DNA from: an uncultured Mycoplasmatota bacterium | GTDB taxonomy: Bacteria > Bacillota_I > Bacilli_A > RF39 > UBA660 | NCBI GenBank assembly: GCA_946528555.1 | Contig: CAMMYS010000009.1 | Span: 1 to 44,765, forward strand | Length of the DNA: 44,765 bases | Reading direction: 5' to 3' | Shown here: positions 498 through 6,132 of the stretch, in pieces | Position numbering within the stretch: the stretch's first letter is position 1 | Layout: each line of letters starts with the position of its first letter | Program-made: the position numbers and the translations under genes | Notes under the pieces: generated by a model | What the model was told of the DNA's origin: nothing | Database searches by the model: none | What the model saw: the letters and a program-made list of their open reading frames with translations, nothing else

Positions 498-2417
498 ATG
501 AATAGTGATTATGGTGTAAATGATATTCAAGTTTTAGAAGGGTTAGAAGCTGTAAGAAAAAGACCAGGTATGTACATAGGTACAACAGATTTAAAAGGAC
601 TTCATCATTTAGTATGGGAAATTGTTGATAACTCAATAGATGAAGCTTTAGCTGGTTACTGCAAAAATATTGAGATTATTATTAATAAAGATAATTCAAT
701 AACAGTTAAAGATGATGGACGTGGAATTCCATGTGAAATTCATCCAAAAACAGGAATTTCTACTGTTGAAACAGTTTATACTGTGCTTCATGCAGGTGGA
801 AAATTTGGTGGAGGAGGATACAAAGTATCTGGTGGACTTCACGGAGTTGGTGCTTCAGTAGTAAATGCATTATCTAAATGGGTTACTGTTACAGTATATA
901 GAGATGGAAAAATTCATGAAGCTAAGTTTGAAAATGGTGGAAAAACAGTTCAAAAATTAACAGTAATTGGTGAATGTGAAAAAGATAGAACAGGTACTAC
1001 AGTTTCATTTAAACCAGATCCAGATATATTTGATTCTGAAATATATGATTATGAAACATTAAAAGTTAGAACCAGAGAATTAGCATTCTTAAATAAAGGT
1101 CTTCAATTAACACTAAGAGATGACAGGGATGAAGAAGATACTCAAGGTGAAAAATTCTTATATGAAGGTGGAATTAGTGAATATGTTAGATTCATTAATC
1201 AAGGAAAAACACCATTACATGATGATATTATTCATCTAACAGGTGAAAAAGATGGAATAATATTCGAAGTAGCAATGCAATATAACAATGGATATAATGA
1301 TAATATTTATTCATTTGTTAATAATATTAATACACATGATGGTGGTACACATGAAGAAGGTGTTAAAAGAGCACTTGTAAGAGTAACAAATAGTTATGCT
1401 AGAAAGAATAAAATATTAAAAGAAAATGATGAAAATTTAACAATTGATGATGTAAAAGAAGGACTTACAATGATAGTATCATGTAAGCATCCAAATCCTC
1501 AATTTGAAGGACAAACTAAAGGAAGATTAGGAAACTCTGAAGTTAAAAATTTAGCAGATAGTGTTTTTGCTGAAGGGTATGAACAATTCTTATTAGAAAA
1601 TCCTGAAGAAGCAAAAATAATAGTTAGTAAATCAATACTTGCAAGAAATGCAAGAATGGCAGCTAAAAAAGCTAGAGAAGCTACAAGAAAAAGTGATTTA
1701 GCAACAACAAACTTCTTTGGAAAATTATCAGATTGTAAAAGTAAAGATCCATCTGTTTCTGAAATATTTATAGTCGAGGGAGATAGTGCCGGAGGATCTG
1801 CTAAAAAAGGTAGAGATTCAATGACTCAAGCTATTCTTCCATTAAGAGGAAAAATCTTAAATGTTGAAAAAGCTAGACAAGATAAAGCTTTAGGAAATGA
1901 AGAAATCAGATCAATAATTACAGCATTTGGTACTGGAATTGGAGAATATTTTGATTTATCAAAACTAAGATATGACAAAATAATAATTATGACCGATGCT
2001 GATGTTGATGGATCTCACATAAGAGTATTATTATTAACATTATTCTATAGATTTTTTAGACCAATAGTTGAAGCTGGACATGTTTATGCAGCTCAACCAC
2101 CGCTATTTAGAATAATGCATGGTAAAACAAGAAAATATGTGTTAAATGAAGAAGAATTAAATGATTATATGAATTCATTACCTGAAAATATTCGTTCTAG
2201 AGCAGAAATAGCCAGAATGAAAGGTTTAGGTGAAATGGATGCAGAAGAATTAAATGAAACAACAATGGATATAAATAAAAGAGTACTTAGAAAAATAACA
2301 GTAGATGATTGTATATCAGCAGATGCTATATTTGAAAAACTTATGGGTGATGAAGTAGAACCAAGAAGAAAATTTATAGAAGAAAATGCTGGATATGTAC
2401 AAAATCTTGACATATAG
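498..2417 (+). CDS. gyrB: DNA gyrase subunit B
   Basis: ATPase subunit of DNA gyrase, which introduces negative supercoils. The 639 residues match the usual length of Gram-positive GyrB. The GHKL ATPase has Glu41 in [15 protein letters not shown] near residue 75 and the [14 protein letters not shown] loop. The Toprim domain carries [14 protein letters not shown] near residue 427 and DADVDGSHI near residue 500, the Mg-binding acidic cluster. The C-terminal gyrase B motif PLFRI is present. The ATG lies one base after recF, with AGAGG seven bases upstream inside recF. It is followed after nine bases by gyrA, so this is one operon. Gyrase rather than topoisomerase IV is indicated by the recF and gyrA neighbours and the GyrA box in the partner. 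Confidence 0.97.
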
Positions 2418-2426
2418 GAGGTTAAA

Positions 2427-4964
2427 ATGGAAGAAGAAAATATAGATAAAATTGAAAAATCTGAAGAAAATGAAGAAAAATTAGACATAGATAACAATTT
2501 TAGTGGTTATTTTCATGAAAGAGATCGATTAGATCATAATAACATTGTTGATGAAGTAAAAACATCTTTCATGGAATATTCTATGAGTGTTATTGCTTCT
2601 CGTGCACTTCCAGATTTGAGAGATGGTTTAAAACCAGTTCATAGAAGAATATTATGGTCAATGTATGAATCAGGTTATACTCCAGATAAACCACATAGAA
2701 AAAGTGCAAAAACAGTTGGTGAAGTTATGGGTAATTACCACCCACATGGAGACTCATCAATATATGAAGCAATGGTTAGACTTGCACAAGATTTTAACCA
2801 AAGATATATGTTAATAGACGGCCATGGTAACTTTGGTAATATTGAAGGTGATGGCGCTGCAGCAATGCGTTATACTGAATCTAGATTAGCTAAAATATCA
2901 TTAGAATTATTAAGAGATATTAATAAAGATACAGTTGATATGGATGATAACTTTGATGTAACTAGAAAAGAACCAAAAGTTTTACCATCAAGATTTCCAA
3001 ACGTACTAGTTAATGGTTCAATGGGAATTGCTGTAGGTATGGCAACAAATATTCCACCTCATAATTTAGGTGAAGTTATTGATGGTTGTGTTGCTTATAT
3101 TGATAATCCTGATATTGATACAGATGGATTAATGCAATATATTAAAGGTCCAGATTTTCCAACTGGTGGAATTATCTTAGGTAATTCTGGTATAAGAAAA
3201 GCTTATGATACTGGTAGAGGATCAATAACTATTAGAGGTAAAGCAGAAATAGAAGAACATAATGGTCATAATGCAATAATATTTACTGAAGTTCCATATG
3301 GTGTTAATACAATGGAATTAAAAAATAAAGTAGCAGAACTAGTTCATAATAAGATTATTGATGGTATTTCTGATTATCATACTGATTTAAAAGATGGTGT
3401 TAAAATTACTATTACACTTAAGAAAGATGCAAATCCACAAGTAGTATTAAATAATTTATATAAACATACATCTTTCCAAGTAAATTATGGAATTATATTC
3501 TTAATGCTTGATGGATTAACACCTAAAACATTAAGTTTAAAAGAAATAATATCTAAATATATAGATCATCAAAAAGAAGTTATTATTAGAAGAACAAAAT
3601 TTGATCTAATTAAAGATGAAAAAAGAGTTCATATATTAGAAGGATATAAGATTGCTCTTGACAATATAGATGAAGTAGTTAAAATTATTAGAAATGCTGA
3701 AACAGATGAAGAAGCTAAATCAAAATTAATGGAAAAATTTGGTTTAGATCAAATTCAATCTGAAGCAATATTAGAATTAAAACTAAGAAGATTAACTGGA
3801 TTAGAAAGAGATAAAATTGATGCTGAATTAAAAGCTTTATTAGAAGAAATAGAAGAATTAAAATCAATCCTTGCATCTGAACAAAAAGTTCTTGATATTA
3901 TTAAGAAAGAAATGTTGGATATTAAGAATAGATATAGTGACGATAGAAGAACAACCATTGATATGACAGCAATTGATTATATTGAAGATGAAGCATTAAT
4001 ACCACAAGATGAAATAATTGTTACTATTACTAATAAGAATTATATTAAGAGATTACCAAAAGATACTTATAAGACTCAACACAGAGGCGGTGTTGGTATT
4101 AAAGGTATTACTACAACTGATGATGATTACGTAGAACAATTATTATCTTTAAATACACATGATTATATATTATTCTTTACTAATAAAGGTAAAGTATATA
4201 GAATGAAAGGATATAATGTTCCAGAGTATTCAAGAGTTGGAAAAGGACTACCAATAGTTAATTTACTTGCATTAGATAAAGATGAAAAGGTTAATACAAT
4301 GCTTCGTAGTAATCAAGAAGATGCAAATAAATGTTTGATATTTAGTACTAAGAATGGTCTTGTTAAGAGAACATTAATGAAAGAATTCGATAATATTAGA
4401 CAATCTGGTAAGATTGCAATAACACTAAAAGAGAATGATGAATTAATATCTGTTAAAGTAACAGAAGGAGATAGTCAAATATTAATGTGTTCTTCAAATG
4501 GTAGAATGGTAAGATTTAATGAAAATGAAATTAGAATCATGGGAAGAACAGCTTCTGGTGTTAGAGGTATAAACTTAGGAAATGATATATGCGTTGGTGC
4601 AGAAATATCAGAACCAGGTAAGTTATTATTAGTTGTATCAGAAAATGGTTATGGTAAAAAGACACCAATTGAGGAATACAGAGAAACTAAGAGAGGTAGT
4701 AAAGGAGTTAAGACAATTAATATATCTGATAAGACAGGTAAGATTGTTGGATTCAAATCAACTACAAATGATAAAGATCTAATGATAATATCTAACAATG
4801 GTACTATTATTAGAATGGATGTAGCTTCTATTTCTCAAATGGGTAGAGTTACAAAAGGAGTTAAACTAATCAACTTAAAAGAAAATAATATAGTTGCTTC
4901 AATATCTGTTATAGAAAAGGAAGATGAAGAAGAAAATTCTTCTGAAGAGCCTGTTGAAGAATAA
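2427..4964 (+). CDS. gyrA: DNA gyrase subunit A
   Basis: Breakage-reunion subunit of gyrase, 845 residues. The start is set by GGAGG seven bases upstream. The catalytic tyrosine is Tyr149 in AAAMRYTE. The quinolone-resistance region GNYHPHGDSSIYEA keeps Ser110 and Glu114 at the positions of E. coli Ser83 and Asp87, that is, without the common Ser83 or Asp87 resistance exchanges. A GyrA box (QHRGGVG, near residue 551) opens the C-terminal DNA-wrapping beta-pinwheel and separates it from ParC. About 35 acidic residues precede the conserved core and a Glu-rich tail ends the protein, both longer than usual. The first palindrome of the parS/NBS array begins seven bases after the stop; its 34-bp dyad with flanking A and T runs could also act as the operon terminator. 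Confidence 0.96.
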   Translation: MEEENIDKIEKSEENEEKLDIDNNFSGYFHERDRLDHNNIVDEVKTSFMEYSMSVIASRALPDLRDGLKPVHRRILWSMYESGYTPDKPHRKSAKTVGEVMGNYHPHGDSSIYEAMVRLAQDFNQRYMLIDGHGNFGNIEGDGAAAMRYTESRLAKISLELLRDINKDTVDMDDNFDVTRKEPKVLPSRFPNVLVNGSMGIAVGMATNIPPHNLGEVIDGCVAYIDNPDIDTDGLMQYIKGPDFPTGGIILGNSGIRKAYDTGRGSITIRGKAEIEEHNGHNAIIFTEVPYGVNTMELKNKVAELVHNKIIDGISDYHTDLKDGVKITITLKKDANPQVVLNNLYKHTSFQVNYGIIFLMLDGLTPKTLSLKEIISKYIDHQKEVIIRRTKFDLIKDEKRVHILEGYKIALDNIDEVVKIIRNAETDEEAKSKLMEKFGLDQIQSEAILELKLRRLTGLERDKIDAELKALLEEIEELKSILASEQKVLDIIKKEMLDIKNRYSDDRRTTIDMTAIDYIEDEALIPQDEIIVTITNKNYIKRLPKDTYKTQHRGGVGIKGITTTDDDYVEQLLSLNTHDYILFFTNKGKVYRMKGYNVPEYSRVGKGLPIVNLLALDKDEKVNTMLRSNQEDANKCLIFSTKNGLVKRTLMKEFDNIRQSGKIAITLKENDELISVKVTEGDSQILMCSSNGRMVRFNENEIRIMGRTASGVRGINLGNDICVGAEISEPGKLLLVVSENGYGKKTPIEEYRETKRGSKGVKTINISDKTGKIVGFKSTTNDKDLMIISNNGTIIRMDVASISQMGRVTKGVKLINLKENNIVASISVIEKEDEEENSSEEPVEE

Positions 4965-4980
4965 CATTATTAATAAAAAA

Positions 4981-4996
4981 TATTTCCCGGGAAATA
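4981..4996. promoter_or_regulatory. Noc-binding site 1
   Basis: TATTTCCCGGGAAATA, embedded in a perfect 34-bp dyad (4972-5005) with an A-run on the left and a T-run on the right. It sits directly behind the gyrA stop and may double as its terminator. Confidence 0.88.
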
Positions 4997-5030
4997 TTTT
5001 TTATTTTGAATAATAAAGCAAATTTATGAA

Positions 5031-5046
5031 TGTTCCACGTGGAACA
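5031..5046. promoter_or_regulatory. parS site 1 (ParB/Spo0J binding)
   Basis: TGTTCCACGTGGAACA, a fully symmetric parS variant; the dyad extends to 20 bp (5029-5048). Confidence 0.9.
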
Positions 5047-5088
5047 TTATTCAAAAAGTCTGATTATTACTATGATTAATAGTTAAAT

Positions 5089-5104
5089 TATTTCCCGGGA
5101 AATA
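5089..5104. promoter_or_regulatory. Noc-binding site 2
   Basis: TATTTCCCGGGAAATA within a 24-bp perfect dyad (5085-5108). Confidence 0.88.
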
Positions 5105-5149
5105 ATTTTTGGAGCTAAATAATGTGTATTATAGTTAAAAACAAATCAA

Positions 5150-5165
5150 TGTTCCACGTGAAACA
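5150..5165. promoter_or_regulatory. parS site 2 (B. subtilis-type)
   Basis: TGTTCCACGTGAAACA, the one copy with the asymmetric Bacillus parS sequence. Flanks ATCAA and TTGAT continue the dyad to 28 bp (5144-5171) with one mismatched pair. Confidence 0.92.
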
Positions 5166-5221
5166 TTGATTATAATTAAATAAATAATAGTGTATAATCA
5201 TAAGTTAAATTATAAAAAAAA

Positions 5222-5237
5222 TATTTCCCGGGAAATA
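5222..5237. promoter_or_regulatory. Noc-binding site 3
   Basis: TATTTCCCGGGAAATA in a 28-bp perfect dyad (5216-5243) with A-run and T-run flanks as in site 1. Confidence 0.88.
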
Positions 5238-5297
5238 TTTTTTAAAATATTAAATAACCAATTAATACTAATTTGTTTAATAATTATTAACTTCAGA

Positions 5298-5313
5298 TGT
5301 TCCACGTGGAACA
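5298..5313. promoter_or_regulatory. parS site 3
   Basis: TGTTCCACGTGGAACA; symmetry extends only about one base beyond the core. Confidence 0.9.
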
Positions 5314-5365
5314 TTAAAATAATAATTGCATTAGATACATTGAATTCTAGTTTGACTGTTAAAAT

Positions 5366-5381
5366 TATTTCCCGGGAAATA
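5366..5381. promoter_or_regulatory. Noc-binding site 4
   Basis: TATTTCCCGGGAAATA in a perfect 32-bp dyad (5358-5389); the outer arms GTTAAAAT and ATTTTAAC differ from those of the other copies but pair with each other. Confidence 0.88.
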
Positions 5382-5446
5382 ATTTTAACTAATAATTAAT
5401 CAATAAAATCAGAGTTTGAATATAATAAATATAATAGAATATTGAA

Positions 5447-5462
5447 TGTTCCACGTGGAACA
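5447..5462. promoter_or_regulatory. parS site 4
   Basis: TGTTCCACGTGGAACA in a perfect 30-bp dyad (5440-5469) with outer arms TATTGAA and TTCAATA. Confidence 0.9.
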
Positions 5463-5507
5463 TTCAATAAATAACATATATTATACGATTGTAACTATAT
5501 AAAAAAA

Positions 5508-5523
5508 TATTTCCCGGGAAATA
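5508..5523. promoter_or_regulatory. Noc-binding site 5
   Basis: TATTTCCCGGGAAATA; here the symmetry stops at the 16-bp core. Confidence 0.88.
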
Positions 5524-5563
5524 ATTTATATTAAAAAGTACCCAAAATAGGACAATAAATATA

Positions 5564-5579
5564 TGTTCCACGTGGAACA
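5564..5579. promoter_or_regulatory. parS site 5
   Basis: TGTTCCACGTGGAACA; the last element, ending 13 bp before the -35 of the SRP RNA promoter, so ParB loading could affect that promoter (inference). Confidence 0.9.
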
Positions 5580-5592
5580 TTATAAAAATAGT

Positions 5593-5620
5593 TTGATTTT
5601 TATTTAAAAATAGATATAAT
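5593..5620 (+). promoter_or_regulatory. Promoter of the SRP RNA
   Basis: TTGATT, 16-bp spacer, TATAAT. The predicted start (about 5627) coincides with the first base pairs of the SRP RNA helix. Confidence 0.7.
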
Positions 5621-5625
5621 TTATT

Positions 5626-5699
5626 TGTGCAACGAATTATTTTATGAACCAGGTCAGAATCGGAAGATAGCAGCCTTAAATAATTTATTCGTGTGCACA
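5626..5699 (+). ncRNA. ffs: Signal recognition particle RNA, short 4.5S type
   Basis: The conserved domain IV hairpin is present: GGTCAG, a GGAA tetraloop and AGCAGCC (about 5651-5675), the Ffh-binding site. The long helix is closed by TTATTTTA pairing with TAAATAA, CGAA with TTCG, and at the ends TGTGCA with TGCACA, followed by a T-run that terminates it. About 74 nt is much shorter than the roughly 270-nt Bacillus scRNA and has no Alu-type domain, like mycoplasma SRP RNA. In B. subtilis this gene also lies between tadA and dnaX; here tadA follows it. Confidence 0.88.
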
Positions 5700-5705
5700 T
5701 TTTTT
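5694..5705 (+). terminator. Terminator of the SRP RNA
   Basis: The terminal stem of the SRP RNA (TGTGCA/TGCACA) runs straight into a run of six T, forming an intrinsic terminator. It sits just upstream of the tadA ribosome-binding site, so tadA depends on readthrough. Confidence 0.6.
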
Positions 5706-5718
5706 ATTGGAGAATATT

Positions 5719-6132
5719 ATGAATAATAAAATAATAAGAATATTAAATACATTATGTGATAAAGCTAAATTAAATGATGATGTACCAGTTGCATGCGTAA
5801 TAACTTACAATAATAAGATAATAGCTAAAGATTATAATAAAAAGGTTAAAAACAATGATCCATTAGCACATGCTGAAATACTTTGCATAAAAAAAGCAGC
5901 AAAAAAATTAAAGACGAATAATTTAAATGATTGTGAATTATATTGTTCATTATATCCCTGCAATATGTGTAAGGAAGTTATTAAAGAAGTTAGAATAAAA
6001 AAAGTATATTATATATTGGAAAGTGAAAAAGAAAGTAATAGTAAAATAGATTATAAAAAGATGGAGATAAATCCTAGCACATTAGCTGAATTTAGGCTAA
6101 AAATAAAGGACTTTTTTGTTAATAAAAGATAG
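5719..6132 (+). CDS. tadA: tRNA-specific adenosine deaminase TadA (short form)
   Basis: Zinc deaminase converting adenosine to inosine at the wobble position of tRNA-Arg(ACG). The cytidine-deaminase fold signature is complete: His51 and Glu53 in AHAEI, Cys81 and Cys84 in YPCNMC. The ATG at 5719 follows GGAG by six bases; the upstream TTG at 5707 overlaps that Shine-Dalgarno and is unlikely. At 137 residues it is shorter than the usual 150-170, and the conserved FN-rich segment before the C-terminal helix is not recognisable. The position next to SRP RNA and dnaX matches yaaJ of B. subtilis, which supports TadA over a generic cytidine deaminase. ComEB at 24835 shares the fold but is a different family. 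Confidence 0.82.
   Translation: MNNKIIRILNTLCDKAKLNDDVPVACVITYNNKIIAKDYNKKVKNNDPLAHAEILCIKKAAKKLKTNNLNDCELYCSLYPCNMCKEVIKEVRIKKVYYILESEKESNSKIDYKKMEINPSTLAEFRLKIKDFFVNKR

Follow-up and report, generated by a model that had tools for sequence, protein, structure and literature searches.

Interleaved parS and Noc-type sites beside gyrA in uncultured Bacilli, a candidate origin-proximal Noc-ParB centromere

Why would a chromosome bring the target sites of two related DNA clamps together at a single address? ParB and Noc are, by the available part of PMC8429893 and general ParB biochemistry, CTP clamps that nucleate at a palindrome and then move onto neighbouring DNA. The two are thought to be diverged duplicates, one restricted to the origin and the other spread over the chromosome, as set out in the available part of PMC7383237. 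The DNA stretch analysed here (44,765 bp, hereafter the window) carries five Noc-type palindromes (NBS) and five parS palindromes in strict alternation over 600 bp, between gyrA and the gene for the SRP RNA, and we asked whether such an arrangement recurs in relatives, which proteins would read it and what its geometry suggests about function.

The array and its conservation

A motif scan bore out the description given in an earlier note on this DNA, namely ten alternating palindromes with 50 to 81 bp between centres. The NBS TATTTCCCGGGAAATA occurs five times, always exact, and parS occurs five times, once as the variant TGTTCCACGTGAAACA, in the order NPNPNPNPNP (N for NBS, P for parS) with centre spacings of 50, 58, 61, 72, 76, 68, 81, 61 and 56 bp. 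Beyond these ten, no NBS or parS site was found in the window with up to three mismatches allowed, and dinucleotide shuffles of the window gave mean matches of 0.12 (NBS) and 0.03 (parS). The probability that five plus five sites in random order alternate strictly is 2/252, and the spacers, judged by eye, do not look like tandem copies. Among 40 window ORFs scanned against Pfam (52 ORFs are listed), none encodes a ParB-family protein. The features of the locus are as follows.

498-2417, plus strand: gyrB (context; PF00204 and others)
2427-4964, plus strand: gyrA, upstream border of the array, with its stop at 4964 (PF00521, PF03989)
4981-5579, no strand: whole interleaved array, N-P-N-P-N-P-N-P-N-P (motif matches)
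4981-4996, no strand: Noc-type site 1 (NBS), exact
5031-5046, no strand: parS 1, exact
5089-5104, no strand: Noc-type site 2, exact
5150-5165, no strand: parS 2 (TGTTCCACGTGAAACA), one mismatch against the symmetric form
5222-5237, no strand: Noc-type site 3, exact
5298-5313, no strand: parS 3, exact
5366-5381, no strand: Noc-type site 4, exact
5447-5462, no strand: parS 4, exact
5508-5523, no strand: Noc-type site 5, exact
5564-5579, no strand: parS 5, exact
5616-5714, plus strand: small bacterial SRP RNA, downstream border of the array (RF00169, 57.3 bits)
5719-6132, plus strand: tadA-type deaminase, the next gene and a syntenic marker (start codon chosen by us; 5707 in the ORF list)

Scanning a genome collection for an NBS core followed by a parS core at a distance of 24-54 bp matched at least 118 stretches, from which L085 (Rhizobiaceae) and L117 (Balneolaceae) were dropped as chance, leaving 116 array stretches among the matches listed. 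All of these come from metagenome assemblies, of unstated completeness like those of the other relatives used here, and most are titled Bacilli, Bacillales, Tenericutes or Erysipelotrichaceae; the remaining titles comprise Candidatus Onthousia (n = 2), some that read "bacterium", a few Clostridia or Clostridium and one archaeon. At least one of gyrA, tadA and dnaX is present in 114 of the 116, the other two being only 106 and 2,199 bases long. Where both gyrA and dnaX are visible (66 stretches among the matches listed), 461 of 482 sites lie between them, and both site types do so in 65 of the 66. Within this interval the array may occupy the gyrA-tadA gap, the tadA-dnaX gap or both. Long examples have 24 sites (L044) or 15 strictly alternating sites (L083), and array lengths are lower bounds because the contigs of L044, L076, L077, L247, L252 and L265 stop inside or at their arrays.

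Because the scan itself required a mixed N-P pair, we drew an order-wide sample of 146 genomes, taken evenly from the order of G001, which is the genome of locus L047 and the closest relative met (its GyrA is 95% identical to that of the window). GyrA was found in 141, the five without a true match were dropped, and downstream DNA was fetched for 134 of these, and existing loci were used for the other seven. Census counts refer to the 108 genomes in which gyrA is followed by at least 2 kb of DNA; the 33 of 141 with shorter flanks were left out, though those among the 134 fetched stretches were kept in the phasing set described below. The comparison of the gap downstream of gyrA, proposed in the earlier note as a check, gave the following counts at up to two mismatches: parS is present in 105 of the 108 genomes, NBS in 70 and both in 68, and an N-P distance of at most 100 bp occurs in 41. 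In a 40-genome census subsample we observed 58 NBS and 171 parS, where dinucleotide shuffles give 0.2 of each; the shuffles of the window and of the order sample rule out chance or low complexity as the source of the palindromes. All 20 genomes examined for dnaA have it on the array's contig, and in the 12 with array coordinates the two are about 7.5-8.2 kb apart; SMC scores exceed the cut-off in 19 of 20. Among 296 genomes sampled across the class, 35 of the 38 from this order carry exact NBS and 10 of the 258 others do; order membership was taken from earlier sampling, so some of the 258 might belong to the order. Census, dnaA linkage and gyrA-dnaX synteny in relatives together support the suggestion of a dedicated, origin-proximal mixed locus.

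Two further observations concern the sites and their neighbour. Across the fetched loci the NBS consensus spans about 24 bp, AAA-W-TATTTCCCGGGAAATA-W-TTT, and that of parS about 18 bp. In G078, G115, G157, G163 and others, the gyrA match lies in a frame of about 1,460-1,500 codons after reading through one or two stops; our guess is that this long frame holds gyrB and gyrA in one.

Two ParB-family proteins and their predicted sites

All 30 array genomes tested have a Noc-type gene and 29 have a canonical ParB, with none found in the assembly of G008; in 19 of the 30 no more than 4 kb separates the two matches, and a parA-like ORF, recognised by eye, stands ahead of parB in the four loci examined. 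In the published specificity code, as given in the available part of PMC7383237, residues 173, 179, 184 and 201 discriminate the two targets and the model requires lysine at 179, at 184 or at both. All 30 Noc-type proteins carry Q173, K179 and R201, and position 184 is S, N, T, A or G and never K, so that the published QKKR quartet becomes QK-R here. The ParBs have R173 in 29 of 29 cases and, at position 201, G (21), S (7; L124, L126, L131, L132, L135, L140 and L148) or A (1; L129). These residues separate the 30 Noc-type proteins from the 29 ParBs without exception. Searches of PDB sequences agree with the assignment for G001, whose Noc-type protein scores 205 bits against Noc and 154 against Spo0J, and whose ParB scores 213 bits against Spo0J and 150 against Noc. 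Four Noc-type proteins scanned with TIGR04285 reached 274.8, 284.4, 280.4 and 293.8 bits, all below the curated Noc cut-off of 315, and two ParBs reached 235.4 and 238.8 bits; the Noc-type match stops at profile position 198-204 of 255, at the start of the linker. Source names accompany 3 of the 120 relatives among the protein-search matches listed, each of them ParB-type and none "Noc". Extra ParB-like proteins lacking the NBS residue pattern were seen on contigs C3 and C10 of G008, C39 of G018 and C62 of G029, that of G018 aligning as RLKS at the four specificity positions. The earlier note's expectation of two ParB-family proteins, one with parS-type and one with NBS-type residues, therefore finds support in relatives (30 Noc-type, 29 ParB), and the absence of a Noc paralog, which it had named as grounds for giving the idea up, was encountered in none of the 30. 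Given the 95% GyrA identity with G001, the organism of the window presumably possesses both proteins as well.

The sites are concentrated at the array. Of the 52 NBS counted genome-wide in 15 array genomes, with up to one mismatch, 49 belong to the array that gyrA and dnaX enclose, and three stand 2 to 9 kb from gyrA; likewise 66 of 72 parS lie at the array, and one of the six outside is exact (for G009, G014 and G023 only one of the borders gyrA and dnaX was on the stretch used for this count). The many sites spread over the genome that had been named as contrary evidence are thus not what these relatives show. Exact NBS in the class-wide sample number at most 10 per genome, mostly near gyrA, unlike the published NBS, which are widely spread except near ter (available part of PMC7383237), and unlike the 41 NBS loci of S. 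aureus (available part of PMC5540599).

A Noc profile that separates the families cleanly (262-347 bits for Noc, 203-235 for ParB) was then set against the sites in 76 of the 146 genomes. These were 38 chosen by hand among the 70 that bear NBS beside gyrA, every one of the 37 that have parS alone, and G109, which has neither site type. The noc gene is present in 38 of 38 NBS-bearing genomes; of the other 38, it is present in 32 and missing from six. Genomes with parS and without NBS near gyrA make up 37 of the 108 in the census, and 31 of them bear noc. No exact NBS was found anywhere in the six noc-less genomes, which do have parS and among which a single one-mismatch site occurs (G106). Among the 32 noc-bearing genomes without a gyrA-side NBS, 24 hold 37 exact NBS, of which 30 share a contig with gyrA at a distance of no more than 11 kb; the remaining eight have none exact, five of them showing a one-mismatch site. 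Taken together, 62 of 70 noc-bearing genomes have an NBS near gyrA (up to two mismatches) or an exact one elsewhere, and none of the six noc-less genomes has an exact one (Fisher p = 1.4e-5 over the 76 genomes; p = 0.001 on the 38 without gyrA-side NBS alone). Many genomes that lack NBS in the 2.4 kb next to gyrA have an exact one at a distance of 2-11 kb, in many cases 5-7 kb past gyrA on its downstream side, which may be a satellite site. Three more of the 37 exact NBS stand 0.1-0.3 kb before noc at G080:C2:92276, G059:C22:84038 and G079:C9:2924, as expected of autoregulation.

These data bear on two alternative accounts of who reads the palindromes. One, named in the earlier note as grounds for giving its idea up, is that a single ParB of dual specificity serves NBS and parS alike, leaving the Noc-type protein some other task. 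The available part of PMC7383237 calls residue 201 absolutely conserved in extant ParB orthologs. In the engineered variants of dual specificity described there this position is mostly T or S, and the serine of 7 of the 29 ParBs speaks for this account; G or A at 201 in the other 22, R173 in all 29 and the persistence of parS without exact NBS in the six noc-less genomes speak against it and make it very improbable, and for the S201 ParBs in particular still conceivable, though unlikely. The other holds that the palindromes are DNA or RNA hairpins, such as gyrA terminators, rather than protein sites. They are perfect dyads, and flanking A/T tracts extend the NBS to about 24 bp, but terminators would not be expected to follow two fixed consensus sequences, to co-occur with a cognate gene or to reach this copy number, and we give this account almost no credence.

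The Noc-type protein itself differs from its studied counterparts. Of 60 Noc loci examined for their N-terminus, 46 were readable by a motif search, and in 45 of these no start codon lies more than 23 codons before NRFQPR; the exception, L348, has a GTG at 17 with a ribosome-binding site and also a TTG at 33 that lacks one. The Noc chains of Geobacillus and B. subtilis have 18-21 more residues before that point (tags not excluded), which in Bacillus Noc is the place of the membrane-targeting amphipathic helix, and B. subtilis Noc without this helix is impaired in nucleoid occlusion (both from the available part of PMC8429893). Judged from its genes, the clade's Noc is without an N-terminal membrane helix and carries, in most cases, a long disordered linker before the C-terminal domain. 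Linker and C-terminal domain together take up 121-413 residues after the DNA-binding domain in 53 of 54 proteins, some of them cut by the end of the stretch; the one protein with only 50 such residues should be the 256-residue L173 of G025. An AlphaFold2 model of the G001 protein (14 sequences, mean pLDDT 70.9) is folded to about residue 205, has pLDDT below 50 from 206 to 307 and ends in a helix and two strands, and the four best Foldseek matches of the model are all Noc structures. The motifs GERR and EN-QR, which we take to be CTP-site motifs, are conserved in 14 of 14 aligned Noc-type proteins. No short motif common to the linkers was found: FINYGEI-, FFSPAE- and DYFKxPDL-like segments each recur in only 7 to 13 of the 54 proteins, and we therefore propose no shared partner. 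The clade's Noc thus has in common with that of B. subtilis and S. aureus the NBS core, a ParB-like N-terminal domain, the DNA-binding domain, invariant GERR and EN-QR (14 of 14 aligned) and Q173, K179 and R201, and differs from it in the missing membrane helix, the long linker and the absence of K184 in 30 of 30. A role in nucleoid occlusion, which the earlier note had attached to this locus, is doubtful because the N-terminal helix is missing and the sites do not cover the chromosome.

Order and helical phasing of neighbouring sites

Across 37 clusters with at least two sites of each type, 156 of 243 neighbouring pairs are unlike (permutation mean 129.4, sd 7.0, z = 3.8), and alternation is often broken in the order sample, for example as NPPPN or NNPPPP. 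The arrays of the window and of G001 both alternate strictly with N first on the gyrA side, though their spacers and spacings differ. The earlier note had read strict alternation as a sign of selection on the pairing; unlike neighbours are enriched, but strict alternation is not obligatory and, rejected as a general rule, is limited to some lineages. As possible reasons the note offered equal stoichiometry or mutual roadblocking, in which either clamp would act as a roadblock or insulator to its partner's sliding and the array would keep both at high density. The excess of unlike neighbours (z = 3.8) would fit, but many arrays contain runs of parS uninterrupted by NBS, and a roadblock to a sliding clamp should need no fixed rotational phase, which makes this account improbable in the light of the spacings described next.

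Centre distances between neighbouring N and P sites cluster near 27, 36, 47, 57-58, 68 and 79 bp. After spacers that agreed in length and were at least 60% identical had been collapsed, the 263 N-P distances of up to 75 bp gave R = 0.29 at a period of 10.5 bp (p = 2e-10, phase 5.0), and a separate draw of one N-P pair per locus (158 loci) gave R = 0.34. At the same period neighbouring P-P pairs (119) gave R = 0.07 (p = 0.55) and neighbouring N-N pairs (40) R = 0.20 (p = 0.20); in a second set of 81 spacers neighbouring P-P reached R = 0.175 (p = 0.084), that is, weakly phased at most. A free scan of periods peaked at 10.65 bp for N-P; for the 119 P-P spacers its highest value, R = 0.29, fell unexplained near 13 bp. 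The N-P phase was first noticed post hoc in pooled data and then tested on disjoint loci, namely 124 census loci (10 of the 134, near-identical to scan loci, were left out) with period and phase preset from the scan loci, where 64 N-P distances gave V = 0.345, u = 3.90 and p = 5e-5. Shuffling the N and P labels within clusters gave z = 5.2 for 149 scan clusters and z = 3.0 for 74 census clusters (p = 0.001 each), and a bootstrap over 152 loci put the period at 10.65 bp (10.35-11.05) and the phase at 4.96 (4.57-5.28), where 5.25 would be half a turn. P-P and N-N pairs up to 160 bp apart, whether or not they are neighbours, also fall at integer turns, but this is not independent support, because it follows arithmetically wherever an opposite site lies between the two. 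The window's own nine spacings do not show the clade phase (p = 0.39). In G001 it is seen in five distances (p = 0.012, with 137 and 140 bp left out), and the 14 pooled from both give p = 0.057. Across the clade, though not in the window, the centres of neighbouring NBS and parS tend to lie at half-integer helical turns.

Such phasing also weighs on an alternative in which the two systems only share an address: Noc would keep its classical division-inhibiting role, genome reduction to a small size would have drawn its sites in towards the origin, and an N-P unit would have been tandemly duplicated with no joint function. Several arrays, L074 and L083 among them, do repeat one unit with a constant spacing, and the NBS of S. 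aureus and B. subtilis are already enriched near the origin according to the available part of PMC5540599. Against this stand the helical phasing of spacer-independent N-P pairs where neighbouring P-P pairs are not clearly phased, the N-P register that the window and G001 keep despite different spacers and spacings, and the missing membrane helix of Noc; we consider a shared address without joint function rather unlikely. Tandem duplication as the sole cause of the phasing was rejected, as the phasing stayed after spacers were collapsed and one pair was drawn per locus.

A proposed composite centromere and its possible meaning

Our preferred reading, which we hold to be probable, is that the array is a composite, origin-proximal Noc-ParB centromere in which neighbouring N and P sites tend to lie about n + 1/2 turns apart and Noc is most likely an origin-restricted partner or regulator. 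The array would be a shared loading pad of about 0.6 kb for two paralogous CTP-dependent clamps, with ParB predicted to bind and load at parS and the Noc-type protein at NBS. From its sites ParB would carry out its usual ParABS and SMC segregation work. With the helix missing and the sites confined to the origin, masking of the whole nucleoid is unlikely for the Noc-type protein, and an origin-restricted partner is favoured; its new role would most likely be that of a partner of the ParB complex, acting perhaps in bridging, in spreading or by signalling to division or replication from the origin. Superimposed DNA complexes of ParB and Noc suggest that both approach their dyads in a similar way (available part of PMC7383237), and if they do, a separation of n + 1/2 turns would place the two nucleation complexes on opposite faces of the DNA. 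A bolder version, which we advance tentatively and would not yet back over its negation, has ParB and a repurposed, membrane-free Noc forming one partition complex from opposite DNA faces, with the rotational register under selection and Noc acting as a segregation or origin-licensing factor and not as a nucleoid-occlusion factor.

Known systems offer partial precedents. The chromosomal ParABS system of Firmicutes (Soj-Spo0J-parS) has in common with the clade a parA-like gene before parB, the parS sequence, an origin-proximal position and SMC, but the clade's parS sites are interleaved with NBS in a compact array whose unlike neighbours tend to helical antiphase. Both protein-site pairs have been placed side by side, as here, in mParSpot (available part of PMC11109969), which combines ParB-parS and Noc-NBS in two-colour labelling; this is an engineered tool for living cells and not a natural mixed centromere. 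A literature search, with subscription papers mostly outside its reach, found no account of natural mixed parS/NBS arrays.

These uncultured Bacilli unite the ParB and Noc site types at one address, with a Noc that is without the membrane helix on which its action depends in B. subtilis and with sites that tend to helical antiphase. Such a 600-bp piece of DNA makes testable whether two CTP clamps load together or regulate each other, what Noc does without a membrane, and how the geometry of a centromere is read.
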